This document shows, piece by piece, positions 6,372 through 37,135 of a stretch of DNA of 64,000 nt. Where the stretch lies: positions 140,394 to 204,393 of the forward strand of contig CAUYUJ010011159.1 in NCBI GenBank assembly GCA_963575745.1, given 5' to 3'. The stretch is from Prorocentrum cordatum (taxonomy: Eukaryota; Sar; Dinophyceae; Prorocentrales; Prorocentraceae). The translations under genes were made by a program, and so were the position numbers. Positions within the stretch are counted from its first letter, which is position 1. Each line of letters opens with the position of its first letter. The notes under the pieces are model-generated. The model saw only the letters and a program-made list of their open reading frames with translations. It searched no databases and was not told where the DNA came from.

Positions 6372-6626
6372 CTCCTGAATACCCCCAGAGCCCCTTCGGT
6401 GTTTCCCCCTCTTTGTCCCCTCCCTAGCCGTGTTGGCTTAGGCGCCTAAGTGAGTTCGAACTGTTCACCCGCCCGAGGAGAAAGGAACCCCTCTTCACCC
6501 AACTGCGACCCCCACGATCCCATATGTGTCAGTAGTCTGAGACAGTGGTAAGCGGAGCTATGTCGGAGGAAGCGGTGAGGCAGGCCATGAACCTCGGGGC
6601 GGGTGGACGCCCGGCGCACGAAGGCG

Positions 6627-7889
6627 ATGACGGCCGGCAGAGCAGGGGACAGACCCAAGGACATTTGGGAGGAGGTGAGCACGCCCGACACGAAAGCGAG
6701 AGGAACAGGATCAGCTGCACCTCCCGGAATCGATGACGGGCAGGATTGGGGGCCCAGTCGAGCCGGATCGAGTGGATCATGGAAGCAGGTGTGGCAGTGG
6801 ACTCCAGCCGAGGAGGAGACGACAATGTCGTGGAAGCGTGAAGACTGGTCAACCTCGGCATTGAAGGAAGCAGACTGGCAGCAAACCCCCCACTGGAGTC
6901 CAGGCTGGGAGACGACGAATCGGGATTTCGGTGTTCCTCCGTCGTGGCTCGGGTTTGACCACCTGCAGGTGTACAGAGACAATCTCAGAGCCTGGACCCG
7001 GAGAGCGGGATTCAAAGAGCAGACCCAGGCAGGCCGCGTTCTCGAGGGACTTCCAGTGGACATGCAAGTGAAGTTCCGCACGATTAGGACCGAGCTCGAG
7101 GCGCCCGACGGAGTGGAGAAGCTCATTCAGCACCTCTCTCTCCTGAGCGGCGAATGGCCCGGCGATGCAGAAAGAACGGCACTCAACTCGGCGCTGTTCG
7201 ACTACCAGATCCGCAAGACTGAATCGCTGACAGAGTATGTGATCCGGCGCGACGCCCAGGTGCTCGAAGCAGAGAAGCACAACCTCGTCCTGCCGGACAG
7301 CGCGAAGGCCCGCTACCTCGAAGAGGGAGCAGGCCTGAGCACGCAGAATCGCATTAACATGAAGACATTAGCCGCAGGACAGGAAGGATACGCAGCAGCG
7401 AGAAGTGCTTTGCTCAAGATGGACGTCCAAGACAAACCGACCCTCCCGAGCACGACGACGACGACCAAGAGCTTCCCGGCGGAGGTCCAGGAGCTCGTGC
7501 AGGACCTGAACGCCGACGAGGAGGTTAGGGAGGTGTACCTGACTGACATGGATGACTCCGTGGAGCTTCCCGAAGACGACGTCGACACCTTTCTCGCGGT
7601 GCTCGACGAGCAGGCTTTCGGGGAGCACGAGGTGCTGCAGGTCTTCGCGGCGGTCGTGGAGGATCGGCTTGGGGAGCCTCGCCGAAGAACGTGGCAGGAG
7701 GCTCGTCGCATGAAGGCGGCCAAGAAGGTGGATCGCGACGTCTTCGACCGACGCCGCGCCTCGAAGCCCGGATTCAAGCGATTGATGATGAGCGACGCGA
7801 AGATGCGCACGAGATGCGCGAATTGTGGTGACGCGCGCACTGGGCGGAGACGTGCAAGAACGAGTTCAGGTCGAAGGCCGACCGGATAG
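6627..7889 (+). pseudogene. gag: Copia Gag-like protein with a frameshifted CCHC zinc knuckle
   Basis: The frame from ATG 6627 gives about 420 residues. A tryptophan-rich N-terminus leads into a Copia-type Gag core (W-L-G-F-D ... W-T-R-R-A-G ... G-L-P-V-D-M-Q-V). An acidic region and a basic region follow. At 7815-7855 the pieces of a retroviral CCHC knuckle are visible: C-A-N-C in the Gag frame, then H-W-A-E-T-C two bases out of frame. One missing base near 7833-7837 would give CX2CX4HX4C. Downstream residues up to about 8000 continue in the shifted frame. Gag normally packages element RNA into virus-like particles; this copy is broken. Confidence 0.8.
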
Positions 7890-11379: not shown

Positions 11380-11896
11380 ATGCGGTGTCGAGAGCTAGGC
11401 GAGTCCGGCCCCTCCTTTCCGGTCCAGGGTGCAGCTGATGAGCTCGACGATGGCCCTGAACCGGACGGCGCTGGCGCTCGGGTTTGGGGCGAGGAGGCCG
11501 CGCGAGAGCCCGGGGGCCCAGGGGCCCAGACTGAAATAGATGAGGACATGAAGAAAGAGGTTGCCAAGCTGCACATCAATCTTGGCCACCCCTCTCTTGA
11601 TGATTTTACCTGAACCCTGAGGGTCGCCGGGGCGAGGTCCGAGGCGGTGTCTCGGGTGCTTCGCAGTTTACTCACGCGCGACCCCGCTGGAGGAGGCGAG
11701 CTCACTTGCCCAGAACGTACCGGCTTAATCGCCTCCTAGCGGTAGACCTCTTCTACATTGAGCTTCAGGACAAGAGCCTGCCCGTTTTGAATATGGTCGA
11801 CCACGGGGCCAGCTATCAGCAGTGCTGCATTCTCGAAGATGACGCGTCGGCCAGCGTCTGGAAGGCAGCATTCGGAAGGCACTGTGCCGCTACTGG
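11380..11896 (+). pseudogene. int: Integrase, first exon: GAG-pre-integrase and N-terminal catalytic core
   Basis: L-H-I-N-L-G-H-P-S at about 11567-11595 is the GAG-pre-integrase histidine motif. TGA 11611-11613 and a following frame change break the zinc-binding end. From 11706 the catalytic core resumes (R-L-L-A-V-D-L-F-Y, first catalytic Asp at 11745-11747; then N-M-V-D-H-G-A-S-Y-Q). Coding ends after ACT GG at 11896, immediately before GTTAATGGG. Joining it to 13172 gives T-G-A-F-G-L-P-E, the expected integrase continuation. Confidence 0.8.
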
Positions 11897-13171
11897 GTTA
11901 ATGGGAGGAAACGATTAAAACAGTTCTTGGGGCGGACGATTAAAACAATTGTTTCGCAGGCCCCCTCGCCCCCGCAATAGCGGGGGGGCAGGGCTGGCAG
12001 ACGGGGGGCTGACAATTCCGGGTTGCTTGGAAGGCCAGGGGGGGGGGCGCGGGGTGGCGATCCAGGGCGCGGGGGCCAGGGGGGTGGACGGGGTGATTCT
12101 TCAGGGCGAGCTCGTCCTCCCCCCCCGCCTCCGCCTCCGCCTCTTCCTCCTCCTCCTCCTCCTCCTCCTTGTCCTCCTCCTCCTCCTCCTCTTCCTCCTC
12201 CTCCTCCTCCTCCTCCCCCTCTCACCCTCGCCCTCCCCGCTCGGCGGGCAAGGGGGGCGGGCGCCCCGCGGGCGCCCCCCCTCGAATTGCGCAACGGTGC
12301 GCGCGGAGGAGAATTCTGGCGGAGAAAGGCAAAGCAGGCGGACCGTCTGTGGCGACGAACGTGCCACGTCGTGCTCTGCCATGCTACGCGTTGATCTTGA
12401 GCGCCACACTATGCAACGTCATGTTCGGGGCCGCTGTGCGATGCCATGCTTTGCGTTGCAAAGATTTGCGATGCAATTCTGCACTGCGCCACGCCGCGCC
12501 ACGCTGTGACATACTACGCTCTGCGGTGCTCTTCAACGCCCTGCCAAGCCGTGCTCTCGGGATCATTGCCCTGCTCGACATCCAACTGCGCGAGTGGAGA
12601 GGGGATCTACGCCATGGTAAGGGATGGGGGAGAGGGGTAGGCTGTCATATATGACGCGAGCGCACCTTGCTTGTCCCCCCCCCTCCTCCTTCCCCCCCCC
12701 CCCTCCTCCTCCTCATCATCCCCCGCCTCCCAATCGCAGCGGCCGTCCGCAAGGCCGCTCGGCGGCCGTCCGCAAGGGCGAGGGCGGTCAAGCGCTTCTT
12801 CCTCTCCCCACCCCCCACCCCCCTAATTGCCCCGCCCCCCTCCGCCCCCCCCCCCCCCCCGCGCCCCCCCCCCCGGCGAGCGAAGAGAACGAACAGAAAA
12901 TCAGCCCCCCCGAAGGGGCAAAAGCAAACGCGGGGGGGGGGGCGGGCGATGTTTATTTATTTATATATATATGTTTCCGGCGGCTGAATTCTAGTAGCCC
13001 GCCCCGCTCAATCATTTGTGTGTGTGCGTGTGTGTATGCGTGTGTGTGTGTGCGTGTGTGTTTTATATATATAACATAGTTTATATATATATATGAGTAT
13101 ACATATATGTATACATATATATACATAAGTATTAGTATTCTCTTATATATATAATCGTTTCCTCCCATTAG
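11897..13171 (+). other. Transposon-like intron (introner candidate) inside the Copia integrase
   Basis: The 1275-bp segment begins GT (11897-11898) and ends AG (13170-13171). Removing it restores the integrase frame and sequence exactly. Just inside the boundaries lie perfect 19-bp terminal inverted repeats, TAATGGGAGGAAACGATTA at 11899-11917 and its reverse complement at 13152-13170. The flanks are consistent with a 2-bp GG target duplication (ACTGGG / GGGCTTT; spliced ACTGGGGCTTT). The interior is noncoding: a partial internal repeat of ACGATTAAAACA (11911, 11937), a (CCT)n run 12118-12225, a degenerate GCCATGCTTTGC-like repeat 12360-12560, poly-C/poly-G runs, and (GT)n and (TA)n near 13015-13155. 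No transposase is encoded, so it would be non-autonomous. Splicing is inferred, not shown. Confidence 0.85.
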
Positions 13172-13711
13172 GGCTTTCGGCCTGCCCGAGATGATATTAT
13201 CCGACGGCGGCGCCGAGTTCGAGGGGGGCTTCTCCAGGGGCTGCGAGCGCAGCGGGATGCATCTCCAAGTCGCCCCCGCAGACCCCCTTCATTATAATGG
13301 AAAATGCGAGCGACACGGGGGCATCGTCAATCTCGCGATGTCGAGGGCTTCTCTTTCAGCTGCCCCGACTAGCCTCGACGAGGTCGACTTGCCTCTGCGC
13401 GAGGTTGTCTCGGGCGAGAACCGCGCGCATCACCGCGGGGCGGTCAGTTCCAGCCAGCTGGCTTTCGGAGAGAATCCGATAATACCTAGGCGCATGATGA
13501 CCGACGATGCCGCGGGCGAGATTGCAGTCGACGACCTTAGGCAGAGCTCGATCGATCAGGAGGATACAGCTGCTGCTGCTTTCGCTCGTGCTCATAAGCT
13601 TAGGTGTGAGGCCCAACGGGCTCTGGCTGCTCGCGATGCCCGTGACAGACTGGCGGAGGCCTCCCGGGCGCGTCAGCACGTCGATCGGTTTTCCATCCAG
13701 GCGACTGGGTC
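13172..13711 (+). pseudogene. int: Integrase, second exon: C-terminal catalytic core
   Basis: Starting with the last base of a Gly codon, the frame reads A-F-G-L-P-E-M-I-L-S-D-G-G-A-E-F. The second catalytic Asp is at 13203-13205. N-G-K-C-E-R-H-G-G supplies the catalytic Glu at 13308-13310, 35 residues after that Asp, as in D,D-35-E integrases. Near 13700 the frame breaks: G-D-W-V-Y-V-W-R, a C-terminal integrase motif, continues one base out of frame. Integrase would insert element cDNA into the host DNA. Confidence 0.8.
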
Positions 13712-14690
13712 TACGTTTGGCGCGGCGCTCCTCCTCCCGAGGCGCGGGGCTTTCCAGAGACTTCCGGAGCTCCGGAGCCAGGCTCGGGAACTACGGCGGA
13801 GATGCTGGAGGCTCGGTCGAGGACCCTTGGCGGACCTCGGGGCTCAGTCGAGCAGGGGGGGGGGGCTCTCCGGCCAGCTCGATCGGGCCCGCCGTGGCTC
13901 CAGCGGCTCGGCGAGAGATTCCGGAAGTGCCTGAATCTTCTGCGGTGGCCGCGGGCCCCCCCCCTCGCGCCATCGACGCCTGAAGCGGTGAGTATTGAGG
14001 GCCCGGAAGGTGAGAGGGAAGGAGTTTTTGAGCGCCATCCTCGGGGGCCCGGGGGCGAGATCCCACCCGAGGTGGCCCCTCCCACGTCGCGGCGGCGAGA
14101 GACTTCGCAGCCGCCAGCGAGGGAGAGGCCCCAGCCGAGCGGGGCCCAGCCATCGACCAGGCATCTGACGAGGACCGAGGATGTCAGTAGGGTCGACGTT
14201 GCCCGTGTGATTGCCGAGCGCGAGGGCGCGAGGCCGCCGGGATCGGTCGTCGCGGAGGCCGGATCCAGCCCGGCCGTCGCCGACCGAGATAGGGGTTCTG
14301 CTGCCGAGGCAGCCTCGAGCAGCGGAGAAGCGCGGACAAGGGGCCGCTCTCCGGCTGCTCTGCCTGCGCCCCAGACGCCCGGGAACATTCCCGCAGGCGC
14401 CAGGCCGACGATGGTCAGAGATGCCGCGTCCGGAAAAATAATGCGGGCATTATTTGAGCATGGGGGCTCCTGGGGGAAGGGGGGCCTCGAGCGGGACAGG
14501 GCGCTCTGCGAGGAGCTCGCGGCCCGGGGCGTTGACCGCGACGCCCTGTTCAGTCTCCAGCGCGGAGACGAGCGGGCCAACATTTTCCTTGATTTGGGGG
14601 ATTTTTTTGCGGGATGGCTAGCGCGGCCTCCCAGAGCGCCCCTCGGCGAGGGGCGGAGGTGCAGCTGAAGAACCTTTCCTCGGATGAGAA
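13712..14690 (+). pseudogene. Copia linker between integrase and reverse transcriptase
   Basis: This proline/arginine/serine-rich region is open in one frame for nearly 290 codons (13802-14668), with no recognised domain. By position it is the usual variable spacer between integrase and reverse transcriptase in Copia elements. It follows the G-D-W-V-Y-V-W-R motif and precedes R-L-V-R-R-R ... V-R-G-W. Confidence 0.45.
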
Positions 14691-15528
14691 AAAGCTGTCT
14701 GAGGCTTCTGATGCGAAGGAATGGGCCGCCATGACGGCCTCGGGGGCGGCCCGAGTCCTGACGGTTGAAGAGTCGCGCCTGGTCCGGCGGCGTCGCCCCG
14801 ACAGAATTCTTTTTGTTCGAGGATGGCGAGACGTTTTCAACCCGGCGAGGGGGCGGGGGCCGCCCTGGTGGCCAAGAGCAGGTAGTGCGCCCATGGCCAT
14901 CAGGATCCGGACGGCGAAACATTGCAAGTGCATGCCCCGACGCCACAGTCGGTGAGCATAATGCTATGTCTCCAGCTGGTGGCTTCGATGGGATGGGCCC
15001 TGGGGATCGCGGATGCCAAGAACGCGTTCTGCCAAAGCAATCGGCTGCAACGGCCCCGGGGAGCCATTTTCGTGGAGACCTGCGCGGGCCTGAGTTTGTC
15101 CAGGGAACAGCTCATCGAGCTGGCGGCGCCCGTTTACGGACTGAACGATGCCCCGTTGCTGTGGCACAGAACGCTCACCGATTTCTTGTCTGATTTGAAT
15201 TTCAAGCGATCGTTTTTCGAGCCATGCCTGCGGCTGCAGCGCTCCGAGAGCGGCCGACTGCAGTCTCTGATTTTGATAGAGGTCGACGACCTCATTGTGG
15301 CCGGCGATTCTAAGGTGCTTCCAGATGTGAAGAGGCGTCTCACGGAGAGATTCGGGTTCGGTAAGTGGGAGGCAGGCAAGGCTGATTACGCAGGCAGGCA
15401 GGTGCGACAGGTGGCGGGGGGGAAAATCTTGGTCGACCAGGAGAAGTACGTTCGCGAGAGGCTGTGTCCCATAGCCCATAGCCCTGGACAAGCAGCGCCG
15501 AGCTCAGACTCAAGATCATTCTGCGGGA
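14691..15528 (+). pseudogene. pol: Copia reverse transcriptase (RVT_2), 3'-truncated
   Basis: The start of the domain (E-S-R-L-V-R-R-R ... F-V-R-G-W-R) is in one frame. From about 14922 the main part reads A-P-T-P-Q-S, G-I-A-D-A-K-N-A-F-C-Q, V-Y-G-L-N-D-A-P-L-L-W-H and I-E-V-D-D-L-I-V-A-G. The V-D-D codons at 15282-15290 are the catalytic aspartates. It synthesises element cDNA. The fingers, palm and part of the thumb are present; RNase H is absent. Similarity ends at the junction with the repeat at about 15529. A further frame change near 15470 is likely. Confidence 0.85.
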
Positions 15529-16196
15529 GTCTAGATCATAGGGTCATAGATCCATAGGGGTTCGGGGATGTGTGTGTCTGTATTCTGTTGGGTGCCACTT
15601 GGGTTTTGCTTGATATCCATTGGATTTTGATAGATTGCATGTGGGCTTTGATGGGGATGGCGATGTGAACGGTGGTACCGATGGCGAAGGCGACGACGAT
15701 GATGGTGATGATGCAGGTGGGAGCTGGTGAAGTTGATGACGTTGATGATGGGATGTGGCGATGGTGAGGATCATGATGGTGATGGCAATAAATTCGATGA
15801 TGACGATGAAGATGGTGAAAATCAGGATGGTGGCGGTGCCGATTGTGATGGCGACGATGATAATGATGATGGTGATGATGATGATGTGATGATGGTGTGT
15901 TTTTGTTTTCGCAGGCGAGTACTGAATCAGCACAGGTCCATGCCCCAAACTTGGCAGGAGGCACTGTGCCACTCTGCCACCCCAAATGTCTAGATCATAA
16001 GGTTATTGATCCATAGAGTTTCGGGAATGTGTGTGTCTGTATTTTGTTGGGCACCACTTGGGTGTTGATTGATATCCATTGGATGTTGATAGATTGCATG
16101 TGGGCTTTGATGGGGATGATGATGTGGACGGTGGCACCGATGGGAAGTTGATGACGTTGATGATGGGATGTGGCGATGGTGAGGATCATGATGGTG

Positions 16197-16216
16197 ATGG
16201 CAATCGGTTCGATGAT
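16197..16216. repeat. Target-site duplication, left copy
   Basis: ATGGCAATCGGTTCGATGAT matches 16817-16836 at 19 of 20 positions. It is part of the GAT-rich repeat and is contiguous in unit A. Confidence 0.85.
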
Positions 16217-16331
16217 TCTTGCCCACCGAGATGGGGTCCTACGGGCGCCTCGGATACAGGCGGCGACGAGCGAGCCTAGTTCGATTCCGAGCTACGGGAT
16301 ATTGAACCAGGCTTGCGATTCCTGAGACCAC

Positions 16332-16729
16332 TCAGCCGTGCGCTTCCAGACGCCCGTTTGGGCGTCGAGGGAAAATTTTAAACATTGGCGTAATAAAAAT
16401 CTTACGCCCGCGGTAATCGAAACCCTCATAGGTACAAGGGGTTCCACCACCATCACCTCCAGTCTCGAACAGGAACGACGACTTCAAGATGATGTTGTTC
16501 TTGTCGGGGCGAAGACCAGCACGGCTGTCGAACTATATATTCTGAAAGTACCATCCCCGAAATTCCACGACCCGTGCCAACGCGTGATATTGCTGCCACA
16601 CTGCCACTGTACAAGACCAGTTTGTCCATCCAGGTATAGGACCCCCTTCTGAAATGCGTGTGTGACGTCCTCGTTGAAGTGCTGGTAAGCCGTCACTGTC
16701 CTTGGAGGAGTTACTGGAGCCAACGCCAT
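16332..16729 (-). pseudogene. Unknown ~130-residue protein in the retrogene, one frameshift
   Basis: The first ATG after the leader is at 16729-16727. An open frame of 81 codons runs to a stop at 16484. A one-base loss near 16535-16545 seems likely, because the neighbouring frame continues with P-D-K-N-N-I-I-L-K-S-S-F-L-F-E-T-G to a TGA at 16334-16332. The two parts together would be about 132 residues. Features include Y-L-D-G-Q-T-G-L-V-Q-W-Q-C-G and W-H-G-S-W-N-F-G-D-G-T-F, which look like a compact beta-rich fold. I do not recognise the family. No signal peptide or membrane segment is visible. Confidence 0.55.
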
Positions 16730-16795
16730 GGAACGCGTTGTAGCGGTTGGCAGGGCACTGTCACGATTGAAGGGTGTTCGGTCCCCAAATGGCGT

Positions 16796-16816
16796 CTTGA
16801 GCCAAATTGGCCACGG
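16796..16816 (-). other. DinoSL relic (19/21 match)
   Basis: Read on the minus strand, the sequence runs CCGTGGCCAATTTGG then CTCAAG. It differs from the 21 invariant bases of the dinoflagellate spliced leader at two positions (A to G at 5, T to A at 10). Its outer end coincides with the target duplication. The leader is added to mRNA by trans-splicing, so its presence in genomic DNA next to a gene indicates an mRNA origin. Confidence 0.85.
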
Positions 16817-16836
16817 ATGGCAATAGGTTCGATGAT
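16817..16836. repeat. Target-site duplication, right copy
   Basis: ATGGCAATAGGTTCGATGAT differs from 16197-16216 at one base. The GAT-rich repeat then continues as in unit A. Confidence 0.85.
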
Positions 16837-16997
16837 GACGATGAAGATGGTGAAAATCAGGATGGTGGCGGTACCGATTGTGATGACGACGATGGTGATG
16901 ATGATGATGATGATGATGATGCTGATGATGATGATGATGATGTGCTTTTGTTTTCGCAGGCGAGTACTGAGTCAGTGCAGGTCCATGCCCCAAACCT

Positions 16998-17110
16998 GGC
17001 AGGAGGCACTGTGCCACTCTGCCACCCCAAATATATACAGCAACCCGCATCAACCTGGACGGCAGAGGAGGCACTGCGCCACTCTGCCACCCAAATGTCT
17101 GCATCAGCCT
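16998..17110. repeat. ~65-bp repeat of the GGAGGCACTG-GCCACTCTGCCACC segment
   Basis: Copies lie at about 17002 and 17067, with an incomplete third start (CAGCCTGGACGGCAG) at about 17104. The same segment ends unit A of the upstream tandem repeat (about 15957). Confidence 0.65.
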
Positions 17111-20805: not shown

Positions 20806-20814
20806 AAGGGCAAT

Positions 20815-21725
20815 CCAGCAGGGGAGCGCTGTTTAGGGGAAAGAGCAGAAGACCCCCCTGCCCCCATATCCCCCCCTGCGACCTGAGTGCGCCACCCAGG
20901 CCAGCAGGGGGCGCCATAGGGCCATAGGGGGACAGGTGTACAGACCCTGCAGGGCGACGAGAAGCAGCAGGGCAACCCAGCAGGGGAGCGCTGTTCAGGG
21001 GAAAGAGCAGAAGACCCCCCTGCCCCCTATCCCCCCCTGCGACCTGCGTGCACCACCCAGGCCAGCAGGGGGCGCCATAGGGGGGCAGGTGTACAGACCC
21101 TGCAGGGCGACGAGAAGCAGCAGGGCAACCCAGCAGGGGAGCGCTGTTTAGGGGAAAGAGCAGAAGACCCCCCTGCCCCCTTACCCCCCCCCCCCCCCCC
21201 TGCGACCTGAGTGCACCACCCAGGCCAGCAGGGGGCGCCATAGGGGGGGCAGGTGCACGTACAGACCCTGCAGGGCGACGAGAAGCAGCAGGGCAACCCA
21301 GCAGGGGAGCGCTGTTTAGGGGAAAGAGCAGACGACCCCCCTGCCCCTTATCCCCCCCTGCGACCTGAGTGCACCACCCAGGCCAGCAGGGGGCGTCATA
21401 GGGGGACAGGCGTGCAGACCCTGCAGGGCGACGAGAAGCAGCAGGCAACCCAGCAGGGGAGCGCTGTTTAGGGGGAGGAGCAGAAGACCCCCCTGCCCCC
21501 TTATCCCCCCCTGCGACCTGAGTGCACCACCCAGGCCAGCAGGGGGCGTCATAGGGGGACAGGTGTGCAGACCCTGCAGGGCGACGAGAAGCAGCAGGGC
21601 AACCCAGCAGGGGAGCGCTGTTTAGGGGAAAAAGCAGAAGACCCCCCTGCCCCCTATCCCCCCCTGCGACCTGAGTGCACCACCAAGGACAGCAGGGGGC
21701 GGCATAGGGGGACAGGTGCGCAGAC
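20815..21725. repeat. ~155-bp tandem repeat, six copies
   Basis: CAGGGGAGCGCTGTT begins at about 20819, 20981, 21134, 21302, 21454 and 21608, giving spacings of 152-168 bp. Each unit also has GAAGACCCCCCTGCCCCC, CACCACCCAGGCCAGCAGG and CAGACCCTGCAGGGCGACG. Length variation is mostly in the poly-C run. The long minus-strand open frame across it is a by-product of the repeat. Confidence 0.9.
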
Positions 21726-21833
21726 CTTCGCGGCGCCGACACTGGGCGCCACGCGCCGACTGCGGGCCCGCAGGCAGCACAGCGAGCCCAGCGAGGCATG
21801 CGCGCAACCCCCGCATATGCCATCCGCGCTCGC

Positions 21834-23450: not shown

Positions 23451-23588
23451 TGGGAAGCCGCCCGAGAGCACTCCGAAGGCGAAATTCAGAACATGGCTCG
23501 AACGAGACGCTGCTTGTTCAAGAAATTAGCCTGGCGAAAGACCCAACCATAAGCAATTGTTAATACCGCAATTGTGAGCATCATCTTC

Positions 23589-24930
23589 GGTGGAGCTCCC
23601 TATGGGGCCACGAACCGTGTGAGGGATGCGCAAAAATGGAGCGGGGCCGCCATGCTGACCTTGCCACTGGGGCCTTCGGTGGAGCTCCCTGTGGGGCCAC
23701 GAGCCGCGTGAGGGGTGCGCCAAAATGGGGCGGCGCCGCCATGCTGACCCTGCCACTGGGGCCTTCGGTGGAGCTCCCTATGGGGCCACGAACCGTGTGG
23801 GGGGTGCGCCAAAATGGAGCGGGGCCGCCATGCGGACCCTGCCACTGGGGCCGTCGGTGGAACCCCCTATGGGGCAACGAACCGTGTGCGGGGTGCGCCA
23901 AATGCGGTGCCGCCATGCGGACCCTGCCGCTGGGGCCTTCGGTGGAGCTCCCTATGGGGCCACGAGCCGCGCGAGGGGTGCGCCAAAATGGGGCGGGGCC
24001 GCCATGCGGACCCTGCCACTGGAGCCTTCGGTGGAGCTCCCTATGGGGCCACGAACCGTGTGAGGGGTGCGCCAAAATGCGGGGCCGCCATGCTGACCCT
24101 ACCACTGGTGCCTTCGGTGGAGCTCCCTATAAGGCCACGAACCGTGTGAGGGGTGCGCCAACATGCGGGGCCGCCATGCGGACCCTGCCACGGGGGCCTT
24201 CGGTGGAGCTCCCTACGGGGCAACGAACCGTGTGAGGGGTGCGCCAAAATGCGGGGCCGCCATGCTGACCCTGCCACTGGGGCCTTCGGTGGAGCTCCCT
24301 ATGGGGCCGCGAACCGTGTGAGGGGCGGGCCAAAATGCGGTGCCGCCATGCGGACCTTGCCATTGGGGCTCTCGGTGGAGCTCCCTGCGGGGCCACGAAC
24401 CGTGCGACGGTTGCGCCAAAATGCAGGGCTGCCATGCGGACCCTGCTACTGGAGCCTTCGGTGGAGCTGCCTACTGAGGGGCCACGAACCGTGTGAGGGG
24501 TGTGCCAAAATGCGGGGCCGCCATGCAGACCCTGCCACTGGGGCCTTCGGTGGAGCTCCCTGTGAGGCCACGAACCGTGTGAGGAGTGCGCCAAAATGCG
24601 GGGCCGCCATGCTGACCCTGCCACGGGTGCCTTCGGTGGAGCTCCCTGCGGGGCCAGGAATCGTGTGACGGGTGCGCCAAAATGCGGTGCCGCCATGCGG
24701 ACCCTGCCACTGGGGCCTTCGGTGGAGCTGCCTACTAAGGTGCCACGAACCGTGTGAGGGGTGTGCCAAAATGCGGAGCCGCCGTGCTGACCCTGCCACT
24801 GTGGCCTCGGTGGAGCTCCCTATGGGGCCACGAACCGTGTGAGGGGTGCGCCAAAATGCAGGGCCGCCATGCGGACCCTGCCACTGGGGCCTTCGGTGGA
24901 GCTCCCTATGGGGCCACGGAACGCGTGAAG
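23589..24930. repeat. ~88-bp satellite, about 15 copies
   Basis: The anchor GGTGGAGCTCCCTA (or CCTG/ACTA variants) recurs every 84-92 bp, from 23589 to about 24894. Each unit has CCACGAACCGTGTGAGGGGTGCGCCAAAATG-GGGGCCGCCATG-GGACCCTGCCACTGGGGCCTTC (given here in pieces). Open frames on both strands (for example H-A-D-P-A-T-G-A-F-G-G-A-P) merely translate it. Confidence 0.92.
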
Positions 24931-25589
24931 GATGCGCCGAAACAGAGACATGCGGAGGGCAGAGGCAAGGGGGAGGGAGGAGGGGGACGAGGAGGAGGAG
25001 GAGGAGGAGAGGAGGAGGAGAAGGACGCGGGGCACCGTCTCTTCAAAACGAGGACCCAACACCACAGGATGGTTGGGAAACATCTAAATACATGAAAGCG
25101 TTTCGAATCGAGAGTCCACCCGCTCCTTTGTAACATTCGACTGTGGGGGGATGCCCCTACCGATTTGGCTTCTTGCTCGACGCCAGGGGCAATGGCTTCG
25201 GCCTCGTCCACAGTTTGATCTCGGGGTCGGCCTCGGCCCCCCAGGGGCAATGGCTTCGGCCTCGCCGCGAAGAAAATGCTACAGCTCAGAGAAGAGGATG
25301 CGTAAGGAGGACTTCGCTCGCGCTGGTGCGCTGGAACTCTCATCGACGATCGACGGGGGTGAGGAAGAGGGGGGGGGGGGGGGGGGGGGGGGGTGCGGAA
25401 TAAAGATGGAGGGGGACGGGGGGGGTGGGCTCGATGAGTTGAAGGAGGAAGGGATGGTAGACATGACACATACATGGGTGTCCGAATGCGGCACGTCGCA
25501 CAGCAACATTGCCGTGTCCGTCGCCTCCTGGGGCGCAGGGGCGAAGGGGGAAGCGGCGCGCGCCCCTCAGTGGCACATGGGGCGTGCAG
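24931..25589. other. Low-complexity intergenic, no gene recognised
   Basis: (GGA)n-type tracts lie at 24965-25025 and a poly-G run of about 22 bases at 25370-25392. Two copies of CAGGGGCAATGGCTTCGGCCTC lie about 60 bp apart (near 25185 and 25245). No coding region is supported. Confidence 0.5.
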
Positions 25590-25689: not shown

Positions 25690-26230
25690 AGGAGTCCAAA
25701 GGAATTCCGAAGGAGGAGTCCAAAGGAATTCCGAAGGAGGAGTCCAAAGGAATTCCGAAGGAGGAATCCAAAGGAATTCCGAAGGAGGAGTCCAAAGGAA
25801 TTCCGAAGGAGGAGTCCAAAGGAATTCCGAAGGAGGAGTCCAAAGGAATTCCGAAGGAGGAGTCCAAAGGAATTCCGAAGGAGGAGTCCGAAGGAATTCC
25901 GAAGGAGGAACCCAAAGGAATTCCGAAGGAGGAATCCAAAGGAATTCCGAAGGATGAATCCAAAGGAATTCCGAAGGAGGAATCCAAAGGAATTCCGAAG
26001 GAGGAATCCAAAGGAATTCCGAAGGAGGAATCCAAAGGAATTCCGAAGGAGGAATCCAAAGGAATTCCGAAGGAGGAATCCAAAGGAATTCCGAAGGAGG
26101 AATCCAAAGGAATTCCGAAGGAGGAATCCACAAGGAATCCCGAAGGAGGAATCCACAAGGCATCCCGAAGGATTCCGAAGGATTCCGAAGGAATTCCAAA
26201 GGAAGCCGGAGGAATTCCGAAAACACCCTA
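25690..26230. repeat. 24-bp minisatellite, about 20 copies
   Basis: The unit GAGTCCAAAGGAATTCCGAAG plus GAG is repeated with very few changes (GAGTCC to GAATCC in the later half), then degenerates to CCGAAGGATT and GGAATTCCGCAGGAA to about 26310. Because 24 is a multiple of three, all frames stay open. None is a credible gene. Confidence 0.95.
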
Positions 26231-36164: not shown

Positions 36165-37135
36165 GGAAACCGCGCGTTCATTTCGGCACGCCCCTCGCGC
36201 GAATCGCGGGCGCTGCAGCTGGCCCGCGTGCCCTTGATCCGAAATGCCATGAGCCATAATGGCGACAGCCGCGGGGGGCGGAGGGGGCGGAAGCCCTACG
36301 GCCCTATGAGGGCCCCTGCAGGAGAGACCCCCAGAGACCTCGAGAGGCCGCGGAGACCCGACGCCCATTTCGGCACACCCCTCACGCGGATCGCGGGCGC
36401 TGCAGCTGGCCCGCGTACCCTTGAGCCGAAATCCCATGAGCCAAAATGGCGACAGCCGCGGGGGGCGGAGGGGGCGGAAGCCCTACGGCCCCACGAGGGC
36501 CCCTGCAGGAGAGACCCCGAAAGACTTCGAGGCGCCGCGGAGACCCGACGCCCATTTCGGCACACCCCTCGCGCGGATCGCGGGCGCTGCAGCTGGCCCG
36601 CGCACCCTCGAGCCGAAATGCCATGAGCCAAACTGGCAACAGCCGCGTGGGGCGGAGGGGGTGGAAGCCCTACGGCCCTATGAGGGCCCCTGCAGGAGAG
36701 ACCCCCAGAGACCTCGAGAGGCCGCGGAGACCCGACGCCCATCTCGGCGCACCCCTCACGCGGATCGCGGGCGCTGCAGCTGGCCCGCGTCGTACCCTTG
36801 AGCCGAAATGCCATGGGCCAGACTGGCGACAGCCGCGGGGGGCGGAGGGGGCGGGAGCCCTACGGCCCCACGAGGGCCCCTGCAGGAGAGACCCCGAACG
36901 ACCTCGAGACGCCGCGGAGACCCGACGCCCATTTCGGCACACCCCTCGCGCCGATCGCGGGCGCTGCAGCTGGCCCGCGTACCCTTGACCCGAAATGCCA
37001 CGAACCAACATGGCGACAGCCGCGGGGGGCGGAGGGGGCGAACGCCCTACGGCCCTGCGAGGGCCCCTGCAGGAGAGACCCCCAGAGACCTCGAGAGGCC
37101 GCGGGGACCCGACGCCCACTTCGGCACGCCACAAA
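36165..37135. repeat. ~187-bp satellite, five full copies, each with spliced-leader-like motifs
   Basis: Five units of 185-190 bp contain ATTTCGGCACACCCCTC, GCGGGCGCTGCAGCTGGCC, CCCTTGAGCCGAAATGCC, ATGAGCCAAAATGGCGACAG and CGAGGGCCCCTGCAGGAGAG. The copies of the last-but-one motif are centred near 36256, 36442, 36628, 36817 and 37005. On the minus strand this block reads like a full DinoSL (up to 18/21) followed by a second, 5'-truncated one. Open frames on both strands translate the repeat. Confidence 0.88.

Follow-up and report, generated by a model that had tools for sequence, protein, structure and literature searches.

Is an intron-like insert in the integrase of a Copia retroelement a genuine introner, that is, a transposon that behaves as an intron on insertion, or a transposon copy with edges that resemble splice sites by coincidence? 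The question is raised by a segment of Prorocentrum cordatum DNA at positions 11897-13171 of the stretch analysed (64,000 nt, referred to here as the window), which reads GT at 11897-11898 and AG at 13170-13171. A sequence-only reading of this locus had favoured the introner. The structure of the insert, the state of its host, its relatives across the genome, its target site and its edges are considered in turn below.

The insert and its ends

The perfect 19-bp inverted repeats that had been described just inside the GT...AG edges were confirmed at 11899-11917 (left terminal inverted repeat or TIR, plus strand) and 13152-13170 (right TIR, minus strand). They bound a non-autonomous DNA transposon at 11899-13170, with no strand assigned, of 1272 nt including a TA at each end. 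If the outer TA of each TIR (11899-11900 and 13169-13170) is the target duplication, as the tandem-repeat register of two other copies suggests, the element proper would be 11901-13168. The proposed donor GT, on the plus strand, belongs entirely to the flank beside the TIR, and the proposed acceptor AG, also on the plus strand, is made of the last base of the right TIR and a flanking G; both are judged fortuitous. A subterminal direct repeat occupies 11911-11953 on the plus strand (units 11911-11928 and 11936-11953; family D14, 89%), within the conserved left end of the family, and the right end of this copy is, by sequence, a GT/AT microsatellite at 13017-13151 (no strand assigned); most full-length matches to other copies end near 13017-13028. 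None of three ORFs of the insert matched Pfam at E 1.

In the 64-kb window the TIR was matched twice at up to 3 mismatches, both matches being the insert's own ends, with 0.00 expected, and no complex inverted repeat found at spacings up to 8 kb is longer (19 nt, the next being 14 nt). A predicted fold of the whole segment has the two TIRs paired with each other, and the two 45-nt stretches around the insert ends have a predicted pairing of -38.2 kcal/mol; since any perfect inverted repeat gives such pairing in predicted RNA, it does not imply splicing. Other TIR and splice-site pairs in the window numbered 8 on the plus strand and 10 on the minus strand, with no excess over 30 one-strand shuffles (5-16), in a scan with a complexity filter that scored the insert as only 11 nt.

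The host Copia retroelement

The placement of the insert within a Copia integrase held up. The relative P0008 (1316 aa) runs contiguously from integrase through reverse transcriptase; since both flanks of the insert align to parts of this contiguous protein, the insert truly interrupts the integrase. The part before the insert (11670-11896, plus strand) aligns to P0008 residues 181-246 with 43-44% identity and contains AVDLFYI, which presumably carries the first catalytic Asp, and the part after it (13172-13688, plus strand) aligns to residues 257-426 with 35% identity and contains SDGGAEF, which we take to carry the second. Downstream of the integrase, a PF07727 match at 14922-15557 (E 2.3e-18) indicates a Copia-type reverse transcriptase; the remnant of this domain (RVT_2) covers 14653-15476 on the plus strand, with a frame change near 14820, a stop at 14883 and similarity to about 15476. 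Seven Copia relatives were found (P0003-P0009), RVT_2 being present in 7/7, and the three nearest are Prorocentrum cordatum by name, with 68, 62 and 60% identity, P0003 being the nearest at 68%.

Recognition of the integrase by other means was poor: Pfam did not detect it in the host, the joined integrase matched a solved retroviral integrase weakly (E 0.42), and protein searches returned 0 matches at 1e-3 with the joined integrase and 0 matches at E 10 with the part after the insert. Scans of viral contigs with the TIR, reverse transcriptase, integrase and alignment A1, and of genome contigs with alignment A1, gave nothing useful.

Reading of the host frames by eye against P0003 and P0008 showed two stops in frame 0 (10815 and 11370), a stop at 11611 in the different frame that holds the pre-integrase part, and further frame changes near 11690, 13688 and 14820, in addition to the stop at 14883. 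A search for an LTR-like pair around the Copia found no flanking repeat of 80 nt or more, and another repeat starts by 15529, past the end of reverse transcriptase similarity. The host Copia is dead and, because it has other stops and frame changes, nothing in it needs splicing.

Several other features were observed in the window. The region beyond the reverse transcriptase end (15529-17032) consists of diverged repeat copies, with 77% and 89% identity, and two places within it carry the string TTTTGTTTTCGCAG|GCGAGTACTGA, which resembles an intron 3' end. A 428-aa ORF at 6603-7889 has a Cys-containing C-terminal part that looks gag-like by eye, with no Pfam match at 0.01. Tandem arrays are located at 20807-21726 (unit of about 153 nt), 23585-24942 (about 86 nt, 15.6 copies), 25690-26204 (about 24 nt, 21.6 copies) and 36179-37127 (about 187 nt).

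A transposon family across the genome

The published P. cordatum genome is given as 4.15 Gb with a mean of 59.7% G+C (PMC10666404). The assembly searched here, which holds the window, comprises 4,128,499,153 bases in 21,875 contigs, and it bore out the expectation that further paired copies of the TIR would be found. Exact matches to the TIR numbered 7 against 0 for a reversed control and, with up to 3 mismatches, 1024 against 111; with two ends per copy, 1024 against 111 would correspond to about 450 copies. Around the best-matching TIRs, a choice that was not random and that puts distant copies outside the sample, 70 loci were taken. For 21 of them the retrieved sequence contained no second TIR; the remaining 49 had a candidate pair, and once repeated entries and pairs exceeding the mismatch limit were dropped, 40 distinct two-ended elements were left.

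The interior of the insert was matched by 37 of the 39 other two-ended copies (E <= 1e-4), the best with 85% identity over 1147 aligned positions and the weakest over a span little above 100. Copy length ranged from 463 to 1642 nt with a median of 971 (n = 38, leaving out L057 and L058). Counts by eye, made with copy L024 mis-oriented, gave a left end of the GGGGCGGAC type in 33/40 copies and a G-rich right end in 32/40; the insert has the GT/AT microsatellite instead. Left and right TIRs are identical in the insert, as in four of the 40 elements. Over 985 ungapped columns the insert carries 69 private substitutions, compared with 13-36 in seven other full-length copies; judged by these columns, it is old or of a diverged subfamily. 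A look at 10 ORFs, taken from 7 loci among the 21 with unpaired TIRs, found no transposase.

The genome-wide excess of TIRs, together with the shared interiors, shows a real non-autonomous DNA transposon family, so that the proposal of such an element nested in a Copia survives. It also bears on the idea that the TIRs are a chance inverted repeat in an ordinary intron or a decayed spacer. The 20 shuffled windows do yield inverted repeats of 13-17 nt (the largest complex one being 17 nt); however, chance would not supply 1024 genome matches and homologous two-ended copies, and the idea, which has practically no probability left, is refuted by the genome-wide family.

Some neighbours of the family deserve mention. 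The elements at L057:1524-1701 and L058:1474-1653 (178 and 180 nt) carry a TIR that is akin to that of the family but distinct from it, their interiors do not match the family, and the TIR variant AAATGGGAGGGAACGATTA occurs at least 12 times among the genome matches listed at up to 3 mismatches; elements of the L057/L058 type are possibly a separate small MITE family. The ORF at L051:2335-3258 matches adenylate kinase weakly (E 0.0044, which does not reach the curated cut-off); two unpaired TIR ends lie no more than about 750 nt away, and the place is a candidate for a copy inside or close to a host gene. A search of the literature found nothing recognised as the TIR family of the insert; absence from print is not claimed.

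Target site and reading frame

The target was approached through copies that lie within tandem repeats, where the register of the repeat constrains the length of the empty site. Two of the 40 copies are of this kind, L032 in a 5-bp unit and L039 in a 4-bp unit. With one TA left in place their periodic runs extend over 16 and 21, with no base over 9 and 7, and with five other fills over 0. The TIR with a TA target reads TA|ATGGG...CCCAT|TA, and from these two informative copies TA is inferred as the target duplication. A TTAA or TTA/TAA target was rejected, with a score of 0 in the same register test of L032 and L039. Beyond the TIR, no consistent flank duplication of 1-10 nt was found in the 40 copies: z was 1.38 at 3 nt, 1.90 at 5, 1.75 at 6, 2.64 at 7 and 2.17 at 10, and less than 0.7 at the other lengths, peaks which we take as noise among ten tests. 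A duplication of 8-9 bp was likewise rejected (z 0.3 and 0.12).

The 2-bp flank duplication suggested earlier fits this copy and not its family: a GG target requires that the element include T 11898, but no conserved outer T is present in the family, a T standing at 14/76 ends. GG was rejected as the target duplication on this ground.

The reading frame is a point on the other side, as are the positive z at some flank lengths, the small number of copies informative on the target (2 of 40), the failure to find a transposase and the choice of copies by closeness to this TIR. Removal of 11897-13171 (1275 nt = 3 x 425) leaves two stretches in one open frame, and the deletion product reads a plausible AFGLPE at the junction. 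Against a TA-inserting transposon, the 1275-nt removal keeps the frame and gives AFGLPE, and one leftover TA does not. The frame is retained because the length is a multiple of three, which is a one-in-three event. It had been claimed that this removal exactly restores the integrase; the single open frame stands, the exactness does not, since the stretch from VW to FG has 13 residues in the joined protein and 10 in P0008, and therefore the junction cannot be called exact from P0008 alone.

With a TA target the pre-insertion site would be out of frame, exceeding the proposed spliced exon by 5 nt. An out-of-frame empty site fits a Copia that had already decayed, although it does not prove the order of events. 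With one TA kept (window 11895-13173) the empty site reads GGGTTAGGG, which is telomere-like, and from VW to FG it exceeds P0008 by 14 nt, possibly by chance.

The edges of the family as splice sites

If the family inserted as introns, the edges of its copies should be usable as splice sites more often than by chance. GT and AG were allowed up to 3 nt from the ends on both strands of the 40 copies (80 orientations, a count that includes L057 and L058 and in which L029 and L039 are one base out of register). GT...AG edges were found in 9/80 orientations, compared with a mean of 9.3 (range 4-16) when right flanks were permuted, and because the sampled copies carry them at chance frequency the edges of the insert look like a chance outcome. 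The TIR's own T was used by 7 of these 9 orientations, and 3 of the 9, the insert among them, have a length divisible by 3. In a second test L057 and L058 were dropped and the register of L029 and L039 was corrected, giving 76 orientations from 38 copies, and six donor/acceptor definitions, with GC/GA donors and AGG acceptors, showed no excess (permutation P 0.61-0.81). Next to the TIR, on its outer side, the base varies (G 32, A 21, T 14 and C 9 at 76 ends); since G is the commonest, many copies have GT at one edge. The GT of the insert lies just outside the TIR, one base further out than the family's usual pair of G and TIR T.

Empty junctions were also examined for open frames in 36 of the 40 elements, selected by flank length, a set that does not include the insert. 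The mean longest open span was 149.9 aa with one TA, against 152.5 aa with permuted flanks, and 148.6 against 153.1 aa without TA, so these 36 copies gave no sign of longer open frames at their empty junctions.

These results weigh against the view that the insert is a true introner, in which a GG duplication and the element's outer T and A would supply the splice sites and the element would be spliced from the Copia transcript. Such an origin would account for the GT...AG edges with AG followed by G, the retained frame and the pairing of the TIRs in predicted RNA, and introns ended by inverted repeats are reported as enriched in P. cordatum (PMC10666404). However, the edges are not splice-site-like across the family, the outer T is unconserved, two copies indicate a TA target, the host Copia is broken, and at the junction the joined protein exceeds P0008 by 3 residues. 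A true introner is thus unlikely, and the membership of an introner family claimed for the insert is not supported, given the frequency of GT...AG, the results with the GC/GA and AGG variants, the open spans at 36 empty junctions and the TA target of the two informative copies.

Alternatively, a TA-target transposon that happens to be spliceable may now serve as a new intron, the Copia remnant around it being transcribed. The same edges and frame speak for this, and among the sampled copies about one orientation in nine carries GT...AG within 3 nt, as by chance, so that some copies could be spliced. Nevertheless the host is broken on both sides of the insert, which leaves no selection for splicing, and GTTAAT, compared with the usual consensus, makes a weak donor; this possibility is considered very unlikely.

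Origin of the insert

The explanation preferred here, at a probability of about 85%, is that the insert is a copy of a TA-inserting, MITE-like transposon in a broken Copia and intron-like by coincidence. The stretch 11899-13170 would be an old member of a non-autonomous DNA transposon family of high copy number, with Tc1/mariner-like behaviour and a TA target. A transposase, presumably supplied in trans, would have moved it into a TA inside the Copia integrase remnant, and decay of the Copia probably took place before or around this insertion. No splicing would be needed at any step, the GT being wholly flank and the AG a joint product of the TIR's last A and a flanking G.

A broader proposition is that a TA-targeting family, without being one of introners, may yield chance introns, with the insert as one such case and the family as an illustration of how introners begin. 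With their T...A ends, copies of this family acquire GT...AG on landing between Gs. If this were true, the family would represent a stage of introner origin at which no target preference has yet fixed splice sites at the ends; it is regarded as quite improbable for the insert. In any case, the family offers many marked insertions for studying chance intron creation.

Comparison with known systems

The host shares RVT_2 with all seven Ty1/Copia relatives and integrase order and similarity with P0008, and differs from them in being broken and truncated. The insert belongs beside MITEs and other non-autonomous TIR transposons, of which those with a TA target are Tc1/mariner-like, Stowaway being an example. 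Like MITEs, the insert family is short, has no coding domain found in it, has TIRs, reaches a high copy number and has a probable TA target. Unlike Tc1/mariner and Stowaway elements, its TIR was matched to no named family, and no transposase was identified that would establish its superfamily; the Tc1/mariner trait of a TA target was seen in 2/2 tandem-repeat copies among 40 examined, a small sample.

Introner families elsewhere differ among themselves in TIRs and duplications (Gozashti et al., 2022, PMC9860276), and introners have been described in dinoflagellates (Roy et al., 2023, as summarised in PMC11453091). The insert family shares with introners its non-autonomous nature, TIRs, many copies and a dinoflagellate genome, whereas its sampled edges act as splice sites at chance frequency and no duplication that would supply splice sites was found. 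In P. cordatum, introns are reported to be enriched in introner elements, which were called by a letter pattern in predicted introns, namely 8-20 nt inverted and 3-5 nt direct repeats no more than 30 nt from both intron ends, and AGG acceptors are given as 79.7% (PMC10666404); the pattern follows the approach used in Amoebophrya (PMC7789003). The insert has this pattern, with its 19-nt inverted repeat and GGG at 11895-11897 and 13171-13173. An ordinary DNA transposon can thus show the pattern that defines introner elements in P. cordatum and Amoebophrya, and because a TA-inserting family with probably several hundred copies can do so, pattern-based introner counts may include ordinary transposons. 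The family may serve as a caution for such counts rather than a test of them: inverted repeats at GT...AG edges are no evidence of an introner unless other copies share the position of the splice sites.
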